Of a stretch of DNA of 64,000 bases, positions 8,196-63,632 are shown piece by piece. This DNA comes from Dacryopinax spathularia. Lineage: Eukaryota > Basidiomycota > Dacrymycetes > Dacrymycetales > Dacrymycetaceae. The position numbers were made by a program, and so were the translations under genes. Every line of letters begins with the position of its first letter. The stretch's first letter is position 1. Under the pieces are notes generated by a model. That model saw nothing but the letters and a program-made list of their open reading frames with translations. It had not been told where the DNA came from and ran no database searches. The stretch lies in the NCBI GenBank assembly GCA_037974965.1, contig JBBPFI010000001.1, forward strand, positions 2,356,001-2,420,000, in the 5' to 3' direction.

Positions 8196-9367
8196 ATGCT
8201 ACTGACTGATTTGCCGATCGACGTTCTGGAATGCATCCTCTTCTTCCTGGATAGTCGTCCCGAGCTCTCGACAGCTTGTCTCATCTGTTCCAGGTTCTGC
8301 TGCGTTGCTCAACCCACATTGTACCGAAACCTTCACGACTTCAAGAGACTGCCCAAGTCTAGAAGGCTCGAGGATGCCGAAGTGCGCATCGCAGTCACGC
8401 GTGCGTGTCGGACGATCAAGCACAAGCCGCATCTTGCGCTGGGGGTTCGCTCGCTTCAGCTCGACTTCACAGAGAAGCTGTTTCAGAAGCCGGATCGCGA
8501 TGTGCTTATGCCGCCGTATACGCGACTCGTATGCCAGCTTCTGCCCGGTATGACCGGCCTTCGGTCGCTCCGAATCATCAGCAGCAACGATGAGGACTTC
8601 CGTAATCTACTCGCTTGCGATTTCCGACTGCAGAAGCTGGCGGTGGAAGGCTCGATGGGTTCCCACGGCGTCCAATTCCTTCGTCAGCAACCTTTTGTGG
8701 AGGACGTCGAGCTGTACTGCGATATCGAAGCACCTCTGCCGGAGGATGAGCTCCTACTCCCGCGCCTCAAGCGATACAGCGGGATGTGGTCGAACGCCGC
8801 GTACTTCGTACCAAGTCGCCCCATTCGGGTCTTTGTTTGGAGCGGAAATAGGGCCAATCTCGAGACTTTGGACGCTTCACGTCCGGCTTGTCTCGCCTTA
8901 TCAACGGGACCTATCGAGGAGCTGGTCCTTGTCTCCGCGCAAATATCTCTCGATACCCTCCCTGCAATACTGCGCCAGGTTCCACATGTCGTGAACATCA
9001 CGATATATGTGTTATGGCGCGATTGCTATGAGGTGACCCCACCTTTTCTCTCTCAGAGATCCCTTCTGACTGTCTGCAGATCATGCACGTATTGCAGGCT
9101 GAAGAGACTCAAGCCACTCTTTCCCATCTTCGAAGATTGGAACGTCTGTCCATCGATGGTCGTCGAATGCAGCAAGTCTCGCCCGCACTACAAGTTCAAG
9201 TCAGCAACCAGCTTGGCCAAGCCTGCCATAGCCTAAGCCGAATCGAATTCAAGGGGTATAGGAAGGGCGATCCATCGAATTGGGACGCAGCATACTGTCG
9301 CAGCGTGGGCGGTCCCTGGGTTAACTTTGGGTTTGATCCATTCGTTGAGCAATCGTACATGCACTGA
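8196..9367 (+). CDS. F-box protein
   Basis: Exons 8196-9032 and 9080-9367 (47-nt intron) give 374 residues. Residues about 3-45 form an F-box (LTDLPIDVLECILFFLD, then ACLICSRFCCVAQPTLYRNL), the domain that binds Skp1 in SCF ubiquitin ligases. The rest is leucine-rich with weakly repetitive LRSLRI and LQKLAV segments, consistent with degenerate leucine-rich repeats for substrate binding. Without removal of the intron the frame ends early at 9236 with a cysteine-rich tail. Splicing at GAG/GTGACC to CTGCAG/ATCATG instead continues the LRR-like sequence to SYMH. It converges with the RING-like gene after only 112 bp. The substrate is unknown. Confidence 0.82.
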
Positions 9368-21287: not shown

Positions 21288-22493
21288 CTACTCCCCCACA
21301 TCAACGAACCTCACCCCCGGCCTAACCCTCCCAACCACCTCCGAAATCCTCCTCACCCGCTCCCTCGCCCTCTCCAACTCCTCCTCCTGCACCTCCCTGG
21401 CAGTCTTACTCCTATCCCTCGTCGAATTCCCCAGTGGATACCTCCCCGCCCTAGGAGTGTGCAGTTCCTTCACCCGATCTAGGCGGAGGCCGAACTCCTT
21501 CAGCTGAGGGAGCCAAGCTTGGTTGGCGATGAGTGCGAGCCAGGGGTCGGCGAGGGGTGTAAGCCCCGGCGGGCCGACGAGCTTGAATATTTCGAGATTT
21601 GGAGGTAGGTGGTACGGTAGTTCGCGGAGAGCGACGCCCTTTCTTGTCGGGCCTGGCCAAGGACCAAGAGTGAGCTCCAGCACGCGTAGGCAGCTCAGTC
21701 CCTCCAGCACGCTCAAGACGGCTTCTACCGAATAACCAGCCGTGTCGAGTCCCCCCGTCGTAATCCTCAGCACCTCCAGCACAGGCAGAATCCCAACTTC
21801 GGAAAGCTGGCAGACGGTTGCGAATGCGTCAGAAACGTCGATCGTCAGTTCCCTCAGCTCTCCCCGCCTCCCAGCCGGCAAAGACGGGACAGTAAGCCCC
21901 GGACAGTCTTTCAGCCCCAACACCCTCACCCTGCGCCAGTACTCAGCCGAAGGCGGCGCCCACTCAATCAAGCGGACATTGATGAGCTCCAGAACCTCTA
22001 TAGGCCAGAGACAGTGGGAATCGAGCAAGGGGAGGTGAGAGAGGTCGCACGCTTCGTCCCACCCACAATGGACGTGCAGCACCCTAGGCCTTGTGTCCCG
22101 CAGAGCGTGGATAAGCTCGGGACTGGGAGAGGAGGGGGAGGGGAGGTTGAGCATGCATATTCCGTCTATCGGCAGTAAAGGACTTGAGCGATCGGTTGGA
22201 TCTGCCTGTCCGCCGTCGCTGGGCAGCACGGCCTGCCGCACGCGATGGAGGAACTGCGGATGCCTGTCGAGTTTGTCGTTCGAGCCGACTATGCAGTCGT
22301 GTTCCACATAACCCTCGGAGTCGGGCGTACATGTACAAAGGCCGGTGGGGGAGAATTCGATGACCAGAAGGTGCTGCAGACCCAGGTCGGCGATGTTTGA
22401 TAGGAGTAGTGGTGGGCCTTCAGAGATGGAGGTGGTCGTCTCGGCGAACGGAGAGACGGTGGTCGTTAGTATTGGGCAGCTTGGCGAGGCCAT
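21288..22493 (-). CDS. Tandem family protein, member 1 (Cys motif and LRR-like)
   Basis: Predicted 401 residues, the first of four adjacent paralogues. I do not recognise the family. It opens with MASPSCPILTTTVSPF, matching the start of the others (ILTT-x-VS), which fixes the ATG at 22493. Next comes LGLQHLLVIEF and a small Cys cluster (GLCTCTPDSEGYVEHDCI). A central HCGWDEACDL block follows, then leucine-rich stretches (LRELTI, LRVLELTLGPW) like degenerate leucine-rich repeats, and a basic C-terminus. No F-box, signal peptide or membrane segment is seen. The stop overlaps a donor-like GTGAGT in the same phase (2) as donors in members 3 and 4, so a further short exon may exist. This is the most diverged member together with member 2. 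Confidence 0.75.
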   Translation of the reverse strand: MASPSCPILTTTVSPFAETTTSISEGPPLLLSNIADLGLQHLLVIEFSPTGLCTCTPDSEGYVEHDCIVGSNDKLDRHPQFLHRVRQAVLPSDGGQADPTDRSSPLLPIDGICMLNLPSPSSPSPELIHALRDTRPRVLHVHCGWDEACDLSHLPLLDSHCLWPIEVLELINVRLIEWAPPSAEYWRRVRVLGLKDCPGLTVPSLPAGRRGELRELTIDVSDAFATVCQLSEVGILPVLEVLRITTGGLDTAGYSVEAVLSVLEGLSCLRVLELTLGPWPGPTRKGVALRELPYHLPPNLEIFKLVGPPGLTPLADPWLALIANQAWLPQLKEFGLRLDRVKELHTPRAGRYPLGNSTRDRSKTAREVQEEELERARERVRRISEVVGRVRPGVRFVDVGE

Positions 22494-22729
22494 GTCGGCC
22501 ACATCGTGTGCGCCCTCCAGCCTGGGAAGATGGAAGTTGGTGGGAGGGAAGTCTGTTTGTACGGACGCAAGAAGTAGGACGCCGTTGATCGCGGAGTCAA
22601 ACTCCGGGATGATGAGTCACCAAGTACGTAACTTTCGAATGATCAGTATTCGTGCACCTAACCATTCACGATAGGCGTGACTTCTACAGCTGTGCTCGTG
22701 CTACATGTTCATTCCTCACTACGAGCCCG

Positions 22730-23857
22730 TCAGGCGAGAACATCAACGCGAACCCCGGGCCGCACCGTCCGCATCTCCCTGCCAATTTTCTTTGCCTTCT
22801 TCCGCCCGACGGCCAGCGCTCTCTGCTCACGATCCCAAGCGGCCTGTCCGCCGGGATTCGAAGTCTGATCCAAGTGGAGAGAAAACTCCTCCAGCTCTGG
22901 CAGCCAGTTCTCGTCGTTTATCTTCTCGATCCACGTCTCTGTGCGCGGGACGAGTCCGGGCGGTGCAGATAGCTTGAATACTTGCAAGCACTGTGGAAGG
23001 TGGTGCGGCAGGTCGACAAAGTCCATGTACTCTTCGTCGTAGCAGACCCAAGCGCCGAGCGTCAGCTCCAGCAGACGCAGGTTGCCCAGAGCTTCCAGTA
23101 CCTCGAGGACGTCCTCCACCCTCGCCGACGACTGGAAGTCCAGCCCGTGGGTGCTCGTCACGCGAAGCGACTCAAGCCCTTCCAGCATACGCGTCTCCTG
23201 CCCCACGTCACAGAGCATGTTTAGAGCGTCGTTCTCTGTTATGGTCAGATGGCGTAAGGCAACGGGAGGTCCAACACGGCGAAAGCCGAGTGAGCAGCAG
23301 TAGTGGAGATGGACAGTATGGATGTATCTTGCGAAGTACTCGTCCGGAGGAGGGGCCCAGTCCCCACTTGAGACGTTCACTAGCTCCATTACCTCCAGAG
23401 GCCAGCGCACGTCCAGCGCCGCCAGGTTGCCCAGGTCGCAGGTCTCGTCCCAGCCGCAATCGACGTGAAGTAATCGGGGATGAAGGCCTCGAAGGGCCCG
23501 GATGAGAACATGGCTGGGAGAGTCGCCGCAGGGAAACTTGTGCAACACGACAGCGTCGATTCGGGGAGTGACGTCTTGTTCCTGCCAGTCCAGTCGTGCG
23601 ACCTTGCGTACACGGTCGAGGAAGCCGGGCCGGGTGTCAAGCTCACCATTGCTCTGGACGATGCAGTTATGCTCGAGATAGCCCTGCGCGCCCGTCGAGC
23701 AAGTACATGAACCACCAGGGGTATAGTCGATAAGCAGGAGATGGCGCAGTCCCATGTCGGCTCCCTTCGTTAGAAGACGAGAGGCGAGCTGCTCGGTCCT
23801 GGTCGGCCCAAACGGTGAGACAACGGTCGTGAGTATCATCTCGGTGGGTTGAGACAT
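22730..23857 (-). CDS. Tandem family protein, member 2
   Basis: Predicted 375 residues in one exon. It aligns along its length with the other three members: MSQPTEMILTTVVSPFGP start, MGLRHLLLIDYTPGG, Cys cluster GGSCTCSTGAQGYLEHNC, RIDAVVLHKF, VDCGWDETCDL, WPLEVMELVN, then leucine-rich segments LRHLTITENDAL and LRLLELTLGAWV. Its C-terminus RPGVRVDVLA corresponds to RPGVRFVDVGE in member 1. A clean TGA follows, and no donor sits at the end, unlike members 1, 3 and 4. The unusually constant C-G-[WF]-[DG]-E-x-C block suggests a structural or metal-binding role (inference). Function unknown. Confidence 0.78.
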   Translation of the reverse strand: MSQPTEMILTTVVSPFGPTRTEQLASRLLTKGADMGLRHLLLIDYTPGGSCTCSTGAQGYLEHNCIVQSNGELDTRPGFLDRVRKVARLDWQEQDVTPRIDAVVLHKFPCGDSPSHVLIRALRGLHPRLLHVDCGWDETCDLGNLAALDVRWPLEVMELVNVSSGDWAPPPDEYFARYIHTVHLHYCCSLGFRRVGPPVALRHLTITENDALNMLCDVGQETRMLEGLESLRVTSTHGLDFQSSARVEDVLEVLEALGNLRLLELTLGAWVCYDEEYMDFVDLPHHLPQCLQVFKLSAPPGLVPRTETWIEKINDENWLPELEEFSLHLDQTSNPGGQAAWDREQRALAVGRKKAKKIGREMRTVRPGVRVDVLA

Positions 23858-24275
23858 CTTGATGTGAAGAATGCAGACGAGAGGGCGGAAGAGGGGAAAG
23901 CCACGCTACGCCTGACGAGACACTACAGAGGAATCAAGTCTATCATATAGACAGATCTTGCCGAAGCATCCGAAAGGCTTTTTCGGAAGTGGGGGTGGCA
24001 TACGAGTCATCGTGACGCGTTTTGAGGTTCCATTCTTTTGGGTAGACTCATCGGTCGGGATGTGGTCACAACTTGAAAACCCCCTAAGTGACAGCTCTCT
24101 CGTCAGAGCGCAACCTACGTCGCTTAATGCGACTACCTATTTTCAACCGCTGCATTACATTGTTTCTGAAGGATACACTCTTGTTCGAGCATAAAGAGGA
24201 GTGATTAAAAATGCGAGGGTATGCTCATGTCGTCGCCTTCAGTTACCCCGCGTGAGCATCACCACTTTTGGTGAC
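23858..24275. other. Spacer between family members 2 and 3
   Basis: A 418-bp spacer that should contain the promoter of member 2 and possibly a last short exon of member 3. One candidate acceptor (TTCAG) lies near 24169, but the join is unproven. No other feature is seen. Confidence 0.4.
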
Positions 24276-25499
24276 TTACGCGAACATGGGGTCGAACCTT
24301 CTGGAGCTCCGTACATATCCTCGCGATTTCCGTCGTCCCTCTTCTATTGTCGCTTTCTTCGTAGCTGGCCACCGGATAGCGTTGAAATCAACCGGTGCTC
24401 CGTTGTTTCCAGGCATAAATGAAGCGGGAGGCATGAAAGCGGCAGCCTCGAGGGCTAACTTGCCGGCTTCATCTTTATCTTCACCGTCGTCGTCCTCCGT
24501 GCGATATTTATTTGTCGACCCCCACACATCCAGCTTCAGGGTGAATTCTTTCAGATCGGGTATCCAGTGCTCGTCCTTCATCAGCTCAATCCAGTCCTCC
24601 GTGTCAGAGACCAAATCCGAAGGGCCCCTAATTCTGCACGCCTCCAAGCTACCAGGCAGGTGGTTTTGGATCTGTCGAAAAGGAGCGTAGGCGTCTCTCA
24701 GGACAACCCAGGGGCCAAACGCAAGCTCTAGAGCACGAAGGGATCGCATCCGCTCAAGCGTACGCAAGACTTCTTCTGGCTCGGTATCTAGCCAATCACC
24801 ATGACACGTGCTGATGCGGAGGGTGTGCAGACGTTCCAAAAGGCAAGTCGTCGCGCCTAAGGTATGGAAGGTGTCGAATGCGAAGCTTTCCGTAATCGAT
24901 AGCTCCCGTAGCGTTGATGTGGGTCCTATACGGGGAAATTCAACCACATCGCAGCAGAAATGAAGGTGTAGACTGCGGATGTGGCGGGAGAGGTATGCGG
25001 GGTGCAAGTGGACACCGAATTGGCCATTACAGCACCAGTTGATGATCTCCAAAGTCTTCAATGGCCATATCTCGTTCAGAGCATTGAACGAGCCGAGGTT
25101 ACACTCCTCTCCGAACCCACAATCGACCCACAGGAGGCGCGGGTGCAGCCCGCGGACGGCTTGAACGAACTCGCGGCTTGGACCGCCGACACTGATCTCG
25201 TGCAAGCAAAGTGCATCGATACGCGGGACGTCGCTCTGTTCTTCACAATCTCGTCGAACAATGTCTCTGACCCTCTCCAGAAACGCCGCTTCACCTTCTG
25301 GAGTATTCCAAGGGGTGCATATGCACTGGCCTTCCCACGGTCGACATTTGCATGACTCGCCTGTGTGGAACCTGACCAAGAGAACATGGCGGAGACCCAG
25401 CTCGTTCACATCACTGAGCAGCCATGACGGCCCAACTTCTCTCTTGGTTTCAACCCACATGGAAACCTCAGTCGTGAGGATTTGCTGCCGGGGAGCCAT
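24276..25499 (-). CDS. Tandem family protein, member 3
   Basis: Predicted 407 residues if read to TAA at 24276. That stop is formed by the GTAAGT of a strong donor (exon end 24280, phase 2), so the true C-terminus may be spliced. It is very close to member 4: the first two thirds look about nine-tenths identical by eye (LTTEVSMW, REVGPSWLLSDVNELGLRH, DCGFGEEC, WPLKTLEI), while the last third is clearly more diverged. The Cys cluster reads GESCKCRPWEGQCICTPW. I chose the ATG at 25499 because it matches the other starts and lies 4 nt after a CAG acceptor of a conserved leader intron (donor 25797, acceptor 25504). Function unknown. Confidence 0.78.
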   Translation of the reverse strand: MAPRQQILTTEVSMWVETKREVGPSWLLSDVNELGLRHVLLVRFHTGESCKCRPWEGQCICTPWNTPEGEAAFLERVRDIVRRDCEEQSDVPRIDALCLHEISVGGPSREFVQAVRGLHPRLLWVDCGFGEECNLGSFNALNEIWPLKTLEIINWCCNGQFGVHLHPAYLSRHIRSLHLHFCCDVVEFPRIGPTSTLRELSITESFAFDTFHTLGATTCLLERLHTLRISTCHGDWLDTEPEEVLRTLERMRSLRALELAFGPWVVLRDAYAPFRQIQNHLPGSLEACRIRGPSDLVSDTEDWIELMKDEHWIPDLKEFTLKLDVWGSTNKYRTEDDDGEDKDEAGKLALEAAAFMPPASFMPGNNGAPVDFNAIRWPATKKATIEEGRRKSRGYVRSSRRFDPMFA

Positions 25500-25503
25500 T
25501 GGT

Positions 25504-25797
25504 CTGCGTGAGGATTGGGGACGGACTGGGTGGAGGTGATGCGTAAAGCCTGAGGTCCTCTCAAGTGAAATCCCCGTGAGACCCGACAAAAGGCGTACAG
25601 CGATGGACGAGTGGCAGGACTTGCGGTCCTTCGAATTTGGAAGAGGTCGGCTCTGAGAGATATCGAAAGGAGGAATCCAAGCTTGCCCTCGAAGTAACTA
25701 GTGATGAGCAGGGGAGTACTCGCACTGGGGCGCCGAGTAAGGAGACCAGCGGAGCCAACTGACTCGGACGGAAGGAAATTGCCTTAGAATGACTCAC
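25504..25797 (-). other. Predicted 5'-UTR intron of family member 3
   Basis: Minus-strand donor GTGAGTCATTC at 25797 and acceptor CACGCAG ending at 25504, four bases before the ATG. The same donor string occurs upstream of member 4 at 27567. Sequence between them is partly conserved, including a GACTCGGACGGAAGGA block, so the duplicated unit included promoter and leader intron. Confidence 0.55.
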
Positions 25798-26054
25798 GTA
25801 TGGTCTGCCGCCTGCTGCAGCATTGGCTATAGTATGGACAGGCGCACAAAGCAAGGTTACTTCCTGGCGCGAGAACTGGCGAGGCCTCGACAATGTGAAA
25901 AAGTGCGCTGTAGGCCAGTCCTCGTCTGAAATGCGTTTGGCTGCCCTCAACGGCTACATCCTGTTCATTCTGAAGGGTGCTCTCTGGTATCGTATAACAT
26001 GAGTGGTGACACAAATCGTTCGCTAAGCTATGCACCGGGTCGAGTTCCGTGAAC

Positions 26055-27290
26055 TTACCAGGATCTCCACTTCTGCTGACTCGCTCGAACATGCGGCCGA
26101 GCTTTCTGGAGTTCCGCACAGATCTTATCAGCTTTCAGCCTGCCTTCTGAAAGTGCCTCTTCTTTCTTAGCCAACCGGTGCGTAGCGTCTGACCCAGTAA
26201 CTGACTCGTTTCTGCCATCCGTAACGAAGTCGGAGTCTAAGTCAGCTTGCTGTTTGTTTTCTTCATCTTCCTCCTCGTTGTCGTATTTGCAAAACTCATT
26301 TTCGTCTCCCCAGACATCGAGCATGAGGGTGAAGCTTTTCAGGTCGGGTAGCCAATTCTCATCGTTTATCAGCGCAACCCATTGCTCGATATCAGAGATC
26401 AGATCTGGAGGTCCTCTGATCTTGCACACCTCCACGCCGCCAGGCAGATGCTTGGGAATGTCTCGGAAGGCGGTGTATTGGGGATAGACAATCCAGTTTC
26501 CGAAAGCGAACTCCAGAACGCGGAGAGAGCGCATGCGCTCAAGCGTACGCACGACTTGCTCTGGCTCCGCATTTGGCATATAGAATCCATAGAGCGTGCT
26601 GAGTCGGAGCGTATGCAGGTTTTCAAGCAGGCAGGTACTTGCGCCCAATTGATGCAGGGTATCCAGGGCGAAGCTTTCCGTAATCGATAACTCCCGGAGC
26701 GTTGATGTGGGTCCTACACCGGGAAATTCGACCACGTCGCAGCAGAAATGAAGGTGTAGACTGCGTATGTGGCGGGAGAGGTATGCCGGGTGCAAGTGGA
26801 CACCGAATCGGCCATTACAGCACCAGTTGACGATCTCCAAAGTCTTCAACGGCCATATTTCGTTCAGAGCATTGAATGAGCCGAGGTCACACTCCTCTCC
26901 GAACCCACAATCGACGCACAGGAGGCGCGGATGCAACCCGCGGACGGCTTGAACAAACTCTCGGCTTGGACCGCGAATGCTGATCTGGTGCAAGCAGAGA
27001 GCGTCGATACGCGGAACGTCGCTCTGTTCTTCGCAATCTCGTCGAACGATCTCTCGGACCCTCTCCAAAAACGCCGCCTCACCCTCTTCGGTATTCCACG
27101 GGGTGCATATGCACGACCCCTCCTCGCGTGGCGAACATGTGCACGGCTCGCCTGTGTGGAACCTCACCAGGAGAACATGGCGGAGACCCAGCTCGTTCAC
27201 GTCACTGAGCAGCCATGACGGCCCAACTTCTCTCTTGGTTTCAGCCCACATGGAAACCTCAGTCGTGAGGATCTTTTGCGGTCGAGCCAT
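26055..27290 (-). CDS. Tandem family protein, member 4
   Basis: Predicted 411 residues to the in-frame TAA at 26055, again formed by a GTAAGT donor (exon end 26059, phase 2, same phase as member 3). The start MARPQKILTTEVSMW at 27290 is shared with member 3. Features in order: conserved N-terminal block, Cys cluster (GEPCTCSPREEGSCICTPW), RIDALCLHQIS, VDCGFGEECDL, CCNGRFGVHLHPAYLSRHI, leucine-rich LRELSITESFAL and LRVLEFAFGNW, and an acidic linker (EEEDEENKQQ) near residue 350. The frame is also open upstream of 27290 to 27527, but without an ATG and without conservation, so it is taken as leader. Function unknown; likely the parent or product of a recent duplication with member 3. Confidence 0.78.
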   Translation of the reverse strand: MARPQKILTTEVSMWAETKREVGPSWLLSDVNELGLRHVLLVRFHTGEPCTCSPREEGSCICTPWNTEEGEAAFLERVREIVRRDCEEQSDVPRIDALCLHQISIRGPSREFVQAVRGLHPRLLCVDCGFGEECDLGSFNALNEIWPLKTLEIVNWCCNGRFGVHLHPAYLSRHIRSLHLHFCCDVVEFPGVGPTSTLRELSITESFALDTLHQLGASTCLLENLHTLRLSTLYGFYMPNAEPEQVVRTLERMRSLRVLEFAFGNWIVYPQYTAFRDIPKHLPGGVEVCKIRGPPDLISDIEQWVALINDENWLPDLKSFTLMLDVWGDENEFCKYDNEEEDEENKQQADLDSDFVTDGRNESVTGSDATHRLAKKEEALSEGRLKADKICAELQKARPHVRASQQKWRSW

Positions 27291-27760
27291 TTGGCCCGAA
27301 GATTGTGAGAGAACTGGGGACTGGCTGGAGGAGAAACTCCGGTTGTGACCAGCCAGAAAGGGCTCGAGGGTCGGCGGGCCTGACGCCCCGGTCGTTCGGA
27401 TTCGAAAAAGGCTGGCTCTTGCGCAGGTTGCGGGAGGGGGAGTCGAAGGTCGCGCTCGAAGTAGTGATGAACAGGCGAGCAGTACGTCCTCGCATAAGGG
27501 GCAGAGGAAGGAGGACAGCGGAGTCAACTTGACTCGGACGGAAGGATATTGCCGCGGAATGACTCACGCAGAGGCGGCGGCCCACCGGAGATAAGGAGGC
27601 AATCAATTGTCGAGGAAGGTAGCGCGAAGCAACATATGGATGCTAGAATAAGCGGGCGAGGAGTGACACCTGAATCTCAGCGTTATCGTAAATACAAGGG
27701 AATGTTACATTACATAGTTTACAATAAAGGAAACGTGCGACACGTGCTCTGATTCCTCTG
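27291..27760. other. Leader and promoter of family member 4
   Basis: Contains the conserved leader-intron donor (GTGAGTCATTC, 27567 on the minus strand) and the duplicated upstream block shared with member 3 at about 25640-25800. The right end (27620-27760) is A/T-rich and probably carries the UGO1 3' end. Confidence 0.5.
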
Positions 27761-56230: not shown

Positions 56231-57241
56231 ATCAAAGAAACGACTCACCTTCAACTAAACCAAGTCAATCCTAAGAGATGGGAGGATGTCAGTTCATTTT
56301 CATGATGCTCAGAGGAAAAGGTACTCACAAAAACAACTGGATGCCCACTGCACAAGCGTACAGTGGGCCACCATCCACACGAGCTCACCCAGTGGCCAAC
56401 CTGGGTGAGCAAGTGCGGACACCGAAAGCGTGGCAAGGGAACGGTGACAGAATAAAGATAAAAATAATAATAAAAAAGAAGACGAAGAAGTTGCCTCCCC
56501 AGGCGATGGCAGCACTTTCATGCGCGGTTAGCTGGCTTCCCTTTCACTGTCCTTTCTCGTCGGTCCGCCTACCCGCCTCCTGCCTCCGCTCTCCTTTCCT
56601 CCCTCGAACCCCTGCCAGCCAGCAACCCGCATCTTCCTGGCTCCCCGGGGAGAGAGGGAGCCGCGCCTATGTATATGTTTAGGTGTGTGGTTGCGGCGCG
56701 ATTTTTGGGCTAGGCCTGTCGAAGACTCCTACGCGCCGCTGGAGGAGTCGACCTAGTGGTGCCCGCCCAGGCAGATACGTCCTCGGCCGATAGGGCTCCC
56801 CTGGGGCGGGTGCAGGGGTGGAGGGTGGGGTAAAGTAGAGAAGGCTCGACGGGGTGAGGGGGTGCGGGGTGTAAGGAGTGACCAACTGCGACAAATGGGC
56901 GAGTTTAATAGGCCAGAGAGGGACGCACAGGCCATGGTTTGTGCGTTTCTTGCTGCTGGAGGAGGACGGTGGCTGGGGTGAGAGAAGCTGCCCCACGTGT
57001 CTGGGAAGCAGGGCGGTCGTTAGGCAGGAGCTTCCGCTGCTTGGGAAAAGAAGGCGTCAAGGAATGAAAGAAGGCGGAGTCCACTTCCGTGGGAAGGTGA
57101 AAGGGTTCCGAGTGAGTGGAGAGGTGGAAGATGTAGGAAGATTGCTTTGTCAGTCCATTCATCGGCCGCAAGGGATTCGTTTTTGCCATGCTCGGCAGGC
57201 CTTCCAAAGGGTTGATGAAGGGGCTGGAGAGGCAACAGCCG
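56231..57241 (-). repeat. Inverted repeat, copy A (left)
   Basis: Read on the minus strand, this segment matches 62714-63632 over almost its whole length, with several indels. Shared landmarks in order are CGGCTGTTGCCTCTCCAGCC, GGCCGATGAATGGA, AACCATGGCC, GCCCCAGGGGAGCCC, CGGCCGAGGACGTATCTGCC, GGGCGGGCACCACTAGGTCG, a TATA-like stretch, the hairpin GGCTCCC...CCCCGGGGAGCC, GGGGAGGCAACTT, and TTTTTGTGAGT. The last is a splice donor, followed by a 58-nt intron (56328-56271), a 22-nt microexon (56270-56249) and another GTGAGT donor. Frames are broken by indels relative to copy B, so conserved coding of the first part is unlikely. Beyond 56249 the similarity stops. Confidence 0.8.
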
Positions 57242-62713: not shown

Positions 62714-63632
62714 CGGCTGTTGCCTCTCCAGCCACCGGCATGGAAACATGGAATGCCCGACGAACTCGTGAAAAGCAACCCTTGAGGCCGATGAATGGAG
62801 TGACAAAGCCATCTTCTTGCATCTTCGCATTCTCCCCTCATCAGAACCCTTTCACCTTTCAACGGGAAACAACTCCGTCTTCTTTCACGGTCCGACGCCT
62901 TCTTTTCCCACCGCTCGGAAGCACCTTCCTAGCAACCGGCATGCCTCCCGCACATGTCCATGCTTCTTTCCTTGCGCCACCCTCACCACAAACCAACCAC
63001 CGCCCGCCCCGGCGGCCGCACCTGAAGCAAGCAAGAAACGCTCGAACCATGGCCCGTGCGTCCTCCTCTGGGCTATATAACTCACCCATGGTGGGCACTC
63101 TGGACACTCCGTACACCACACTCCCCACTCCCCGCTCCCTGCTCCCCTCCCTTGACTTTGCCCTACCCTCCACCCCTGTACCCGCCCCAGGGGAGCCCTC
63201 TCGGCCGAGGACGTATCTGCCTGGGCGGGCACCACTAGGTCGGCTCCTTGCGCGGCGCGTAGGAGTCTCCGACAGACCTAACCAAAAAAGCGCGCCGCAA
63301 GCACATACCCATATAAATATATATAGCGCGGCTCCCTCATCTCCCCGGGGAGCCAGAAAGATGCAGTTGGCCAGCATGAAAGCGCAACCGTTGCTGGGGA
63401 GGCAACTTTCCTTTTCTCTCTTTACCCATGCTTGTGCGACGGCCTGATCAACCGGCAAGCAAGCATGGGTGGGCGTCTGCGGGGCTGTTGCCCTCTCCTT
63501 GGAGAGGGTAATGGTAGGTGCCTGCAGGCGCCCAACCCCATTTTTTTGTGAGTCTCCTTTGTCCGCAATGTCTTGACCAGTACTAATGCCGCAAACATGT
63601 TCTAGGCATCTAAGCAGGCTTGAGTTACAGGT
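62714..63632 (+). repeat. Inverted repeat, copy B (right), with spliced transcription unit
   Basis: Plus-strand counterpart of copy A. It contains the same landmarks, a clear TATA run (63312-63325), the hairpin around 63330-63354, a donor GTGAGT at 63548, branch-point-like TACTAAT at 63581, acceptor at 63605, a 25-nt microexon 63606-63630 and donor GTAAGT at 63631. The intron is 58 nt, the same as in copy A. An open frame across 62750-63447 includes GEPSRPRTYLPGRAPLGRLL, also readable in copy A, but indels shift frames elsewhere. The unit continues downstream. Confidence 0.8.

Follow-up and report, generated by a model that had tools for sequence, protein, structure and literature searches.

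Four adjacent genes (g1 to g4) of the dacrymycete fungus Dacryopinax spathularia were found to form a tandem array whose products are predicted to be leucine-rich repeat (LRR) proteins in which no F-box is detected. The genes lie in a 64,000-nucleotide stretch of DNA (hereafter the window; positions 2,356,001-2,420,000 of contig JBBPFI010000001.1, here termed C1) and were compared with the remainder of the genome, which amounts to 29.2 Mb in 24 contigs. We consider it probable (at roughly 60%) that these genes represent a small family of F-box-less LRR proteins that grew in tandem and act as intracellular protein-binding adaptors. Four properties were computed: an LRR fold, evolutionary constraint, no detected F-box, and no clear membrane or signal stretch. 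The intracellular location and adaptor role are inferred. The unnamed family is new; the shape of its proteins and their tandem arrangement are ordinary.

The array consists of four minus-strand open reading frames in a row (window positions 21288-27290), each initiated by ATG, contained in a single frame and 375 to 411 amino acids (aa) in length. The original prediction, made from the letters of the window, had placed a four-gene, same-strand tandem array at 21288..27600. This arrangement was confirmed by the four frames listed in Table 1, and the span was found to hold for the genes, with its last portion (27291-27600) corresponding to upstream DNA. The encoded proteins are paralogs far above chance, as array members find one another with E values of 1.5e-39 to 1.7e-189, and they group as two pairs, g1/g2 and g3/g4. 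Pairwise protein identity is 70-72% for g3/g4 and 36-46% for all other pairs; over an alignment of the four array proteins (A1), identity to g4 is 70, 42 and 36%. Two sequence signatures described earlier, an ILTT-x-VS start and a C-G-[WF]-[DG]-E-x-C block, were present in all four members of this alignment. A third, a Cys cluster after an RHxLL-type strand, was recovered in slightly altered form: C-x-C...C follows [RQ]-H-x-L-[LV] in all four proteins, with one member having Q in place of R.

Table 1. Genes of the array and duplicated upstream DNA, in window coordinates. dN/dS, ratio of nonsynonymous to synonymous substitution rates; pLDDT, predicted local distance difference test; pTM, predicted template modelling score (AlphaFold models).
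Feature	Position	Strand	Properties
g1, F-box-less LRR protein	21288-22493	-	401 aa; single open frame; motifs present; dN/dS versus g2 0.26
g2, F-box-less LRR protein	22730-23857	-	375 aa; on average nearest to the other three; modelled, pLDDT 76.3, pTM 0.80
g3, paralog of g4	24276-25499	-	407 aa; last conserved alpha/beta unit in a frame differing from g1, g2 and g4
g4, paralog	26055-27290	-	411 aa; modelled, pLDDT 74.1, pTM 0.76; acidic low-confidence stretch precedes last unit
g3 upstream DNA	25500-25812	-	alignable with g4 upstream DNA (duplicated with gene); holds 53-nt block 25760-25812
g4 upstream DNA	27291-27582	-	alignable with g3 upstream DNA; holds 53-nt block 27530-27582

Structure prediction, which had been proposed for one member, was performed on g2 and g4 by use of AlphaFold. 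Both models were LRR solenoids with LRR proteins as their best structural matches, in agreement with the LRR-like character originally attributed to the family. The predicted solenoid is composed of about 10 beta/alpha units with parallel strands on the concave face, is capped at its N-terminus by a beta-hairpin, and ends in a helix-plus-strand unit. When matches were ranked by VIA-align, first place went to Rna1p for the g2 model and, for the g4 model, to what is presumably RANGAP1 in the RANBP2/RANGAP1 complex. RanGAP identity was not adopted: RanGAP-type chains lead this ranking, yet NLR, FBXL and LRRC8 chains are within 1.6 Z units. RanGAP (Rna1p/RANGAP1) and ribonuclease inhibitor are, like the array proteins, LRR horseshoes without an F-box; the resemblance to RanGAP (11-14% identity) is one of fold only. 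A putative partner protein would be bound at the concave face of the solenoid, with two Cys-bearing loops that may shape or stabilise one edge of this face. Following expansion of the family by tandem duplication, the g1/g2 and g3/g4 pairs may have diverged in the partners that they bind or in how those partners are regulated.

At the sequence level, no member reached a Pfam or NCBIfam cut-off, which bears out the earlier view that the proteins match no known family. An NCBIfam search up to E 1 returned no match. Pfam searches gave weak LRR matches in two of the four members, the best (E 0.047) being to PF25019 LRR_R13L1-DRL21 at 14.0 bits (cut-off 27), with PF23598 LRR_14 likewise below threshold (12.5 bits versus a cut-off of 40). 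A PDB sequence search with alignment A1 up to E 10 yielded one match only, at E 0.7, which was taken as chance. The absence of an F-box had also been predicted, and none of the four proteins matched any F-box model at E<=1, or at E<=10 in a second search, with filters that drop most matches above about E 0.1. By Kyte-Doolittle hydropathy scan, no clear membrane or signal stretch was detected, although no trained predictor was used and g1, with a highest 19-residue mean of 1.56, is near the classic limit; the other three proteins peaked at 1.12, 0.81 and 0.78, and values near the N-terminus were 0.44-0.64. The fungal LRR adenylate cyclases and the few fungal LRR receptors noted in PMC2939053 are, like the array proteins, LRR proteins of fungi, but neither a cyclase nor any other Pfam domain was identified in the array proteins, and the hydropathy scan revealed no clear membrane helix. 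Among the literature matches listed, no title or abstract opening described the array family, and one search on leucine-rich repeats in Dacrymycetes genomes gave no paper.

The four array genes are real and under purifying selection, as dN/dS (Nei-Gojobori counting) was 0.33 for g3/g4 and 0.16-0.26 for the other five pairs, in which synonymous sites are near saturation. Differences between g3 and g4 at codon positions 1, 2 and 3 numbered 90, 62 and 140 of 399. The suggestion that the family is fast-evolving was thus upheld in part: the proteins have diverged (36-72% identical), but all six pairs are constrained.

Alternatively, the array proteins may be divergent F-box/LRR proteins, descended from the large F-box set of this genome, that still dock an SCF (Skp1-cullin-F-box) ligase or Skp1-like adaptors via a degenerate N-terminus. 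This explanation is unlikely, although it is the best of the alternatives. F-box-like matches are abundant in the genome, with at least 149 detected at E<=0.1 (132 above the curated cut-off); this count is a lower bound, as 150 of 206 candidates were scored. Among 14 control genomes searched in this way at E<=0.1, 2 gave sub-cut-off matches. In Flammulina filiformis, by way of comparison, 210 F-box genes are annotated according to PMC7567395. The D. spathularia matches are often clustered and long: open frames of 330 aa or more contain 89 of the 149, and for 32 of them another F-box-like match lies on the same strand within 5 kb, compared to a mean of 3.6 and a maximum of 12 in 500 random placements on contigs C1-C18. 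Twelve same-strand groups, defined by position and strand, were found; two of these had five members spaced 1.6-4.4 kb apart, with one member each under the Pfam cut-off. Same-strand clusters are located, for example, at C4:2035553-2043839 and C8:863805-875812. The array resembles these same-strand clusters of long open frames, which are a usual arrangement in this genome, and thus its expansion is not exceptional. An F-box-like gene is also present in the window at 8196-9236 on the plus strand (PF12937, 21.8 bits versus a cut-off of 24.3 in the window and 26.4 bits in the genome search); the surrounding region, described earlier as one of single-copy housekeeping genes, is therefore not purely so.

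Structural matches of the models also include the F-box LRR proteins TIR1, FBXL2 and FBXL17, and among viral proteins the g2 model is matched best by an F-box protein. The FBXL-type proteins TIR1, FBXL2, FBXL17 and Grr1, the last from yeast (PMC13117327), share with the array proteins the LRR solenoid and probably a protein-recognition surface. By contrast to the FBXL-type proteins, no F-box was detected in any of the four array members, and beta-strands (the N-terminal hairpin) are at the N-terminus of both models instead of an F-box helix bundle. Comparison of the array proteins to 22 open frames over F-box matches likewise revealed no significant relation by hmmsearch (best E 0.13) or by hhalign, in which probabilities were at most 4.6% and scores of 11.8-27.4 compared to shuffles of up to 27.3. 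By hhalign, 6 of the 22 frames scored above their own five shuffles, with about 4 expected by chance. These frames are part of the at least 149 matches; several appear by eye to be WD40 or other types and not LRR proteins, and for L033 at least, the frame taken differs from the one that encodes the F-box. A weak match (E 0.018) to a 46-residue stretch in the overlapping loci L043 and L046 was set aside: the F-box frame is on the other strand there, and the match looks fortuitous. Descent of the array from F-box/LRR proteins via loss of the F-box is plausible.

The conserved Cys residues were examined in alignment A1 and the g4 model. Six Cys are invariant in all four proteins, whereas only two of the four have a further, fourth Cys in the first cluster. 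In the g4 model, whose numbering omits the first Met, the first LRR strand (residues 37-42) is followed by C49, C51 and C59, the third (122-126) by C127 and C133, and the fifth (176-180) by C182 (residue 183 of full-length g4). Judging from this strand order, the conserved Cys would be aligned along one edge of the solenoid. A second alternative is that the array encodes metal- or redox-responsive proteins, with partner binding controlled by the C-x-C...C and C-G-[WF]-x-E-x-C loops through a bound metal or a switchable disulphide. Consistent with this possibility, the six Cys are invariant though some pairs are only 36% alike, and the Cys loops come after LRR strands one and three, at one edge of the model. 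We find this explanation improbable, and less credible than an F-box origin. The C-x-C loop (residues 52-60 of the g4 model) has a pLDDT below 50, so that Cys-Cys distances are undefined there, and half of the members lack the fourth Cys of this cluster. Cys-type LRR repeats often have a Cys at the position equivalent to C182, and the last invariant Cys is at this usual position, where metal is unnecessary. The Cys residues may have a structural, redox or metal role.

To define copy number, each of the four proteins was used as sole query against the genome. By this approach, only the four array genes were found, plus a fragment of the g3 tail that was detected by g4. These searches, in which exons are read one at a time and scoring is confined to the best candidates (four or five here), recovered members down to 36% identity; thus, further full-length copies in the genome at 36% identity or above are unlikely. 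Profile search of about 5.8 billion proteins with alignment A1 found none at E<=1 (5060 candidates), and protein search with g2 residues 1-335 found none at E<=10 (7995 candidates), in both cases with a word filter that could miss relatives of 36-46% identity. Array members at this level of identity have 0-9 five-residue words in common altogether, and 0-2 when 100 words are drawn evenly. The empty searches were therefore not read as proof of an orphan or, as had been suggested, lineage-specific family, because such a filter detects almost nothing at about 40% identity. As determined with NRAMP, a conserved protein, as control query, the searched database contains proteins of Dacryopinax primogenitus (class Dacrymycetes) and many other basidiomycetes. 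The neighboring NRAMP gene product was 75% identical to that of D. primogenitus over 97% of the query, with substitutions throughout, and the next matches by E-value were 51-52% identical (best 120 of 1302).

An ungapped repeat of 92% identity between g3 and g4 (25344-25500 and 27135-27291) stops at the start codon, and this drop in identity at the ATG would speak against a conserved upstream exon. Alignment of the 320 bases upstream of g3 and g4 gave 190 identities in 288 aligned positions, compared to a mean of 118 and a maximum of 136 in 20 shuffles; thus, upstream DNA was duplicated with the gene. In the three other pairs compared, upstream likeness was not above shuffles: g1/g2 (72 identical versus 80), g2/g4 (89 versus 100) and g1/g4 (53 versus 83). 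Within the g3 and g4 upstream DNA is a 53-nt block, 81% identical between the two copies and situated 240-313 bases ahead of the start codons. The window contains just two exact copies of the 17-nt core of this block, one in front of g3 and the other in front of g4, and two or more matches with up to three mismatches were found in 3 of 100 shuffles. Each block contains TGACTCA once; a Gcn4-like site was considered and dropped, as this heptamer occurs 7 times in the window versus 10 expected by chance.

Most change between g3 and g4 is in the C-terminal half. Of the fourfold-degenerate sites, 12 of 70 differ N-terminally compared to 23 of 56 C-terminally (Fisher p 0.005), with the boundary picked after the data were seen and the N-terminal part itself uneven (2/24, 6/16 and 4/30). 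A longest-run test of this uneven divergence gave p 0.03 and a window test p 0.56. The signal is modest and could reflect partial gene conversion or slower evolution of the N-terminal half. A more far-reaching possibility is that the array is a dacrymycete-restricted family of F-box-less LRR recognition proteins, in which tandem copies exchange sequence and diversify their C-terminal repeats for intracellular recognition (e.g., of self versus non-self, or in pathogen sensing). We regard this as a remote prospect. PMC2939053 reports 6 to 37 LRR proteins per fungal genome by Pfam and almost no LRR receptors. A Pfam-based count of this type would omit the array family, because no member reaches an LRR cut-off. 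The array proteins fall between annotation systems, as they are below LRR profile cut-offs, have no F-box and return empty sequence searches, yet have a recognisable fold. Were the family restricted to Dacrymycetes and variable among strains, a role as a candidate recognition system would follow, in a kingdom described in PMC2939053 as nearly without LRR receptors; if not, it would be an ordinary, unnamed adaptor family.

The 3' end of g3 differs from those of its relatives. The last conserved alpha/beta unit, which has an R-P-x-V-R tail in the other members, is out of frame in g3 (window 24259-24400) and was detected as a separate genome match (C1:2380259-2380396) to g4 residues 365-409, at E 5.3e-4 and with two TGA inside. 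A frameshift may be responsible for this, as may splicing that was not predicted or a fault in the assembly. The out-of-frame tail could be taken as a sign of a functionless, decaying gene array, but this is very improbable given that dN/dS is well below 1 in every pair and all frames are open over 375-411 codons. Least credible is that the LRR genes were domesticated or horizontally acquired from a giant virus or bacterium: the genes are single-frame and the g2 model matches giant-virus LRR/F-box proteins structurally, but these matches are at the fold level only (8-15% identity among the 50 matches listed), open frames of this size are common among the F-box-like matches of the genome, and tblastn confirmed no relatives among 44 viral and 48 prokaryote pattern matches to contigs, a weak test based on two short peptide patterns each.

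An Rfam search of the window returned nothing at gathering scores. Elsewhere in the window, an inverted duplication with arms of about 620-660 bp and 75% identity (56622-57241 and 62714-63371) was found to flank a 5.5-kb stretch, and a genome search with the first arm detected only these two copies.
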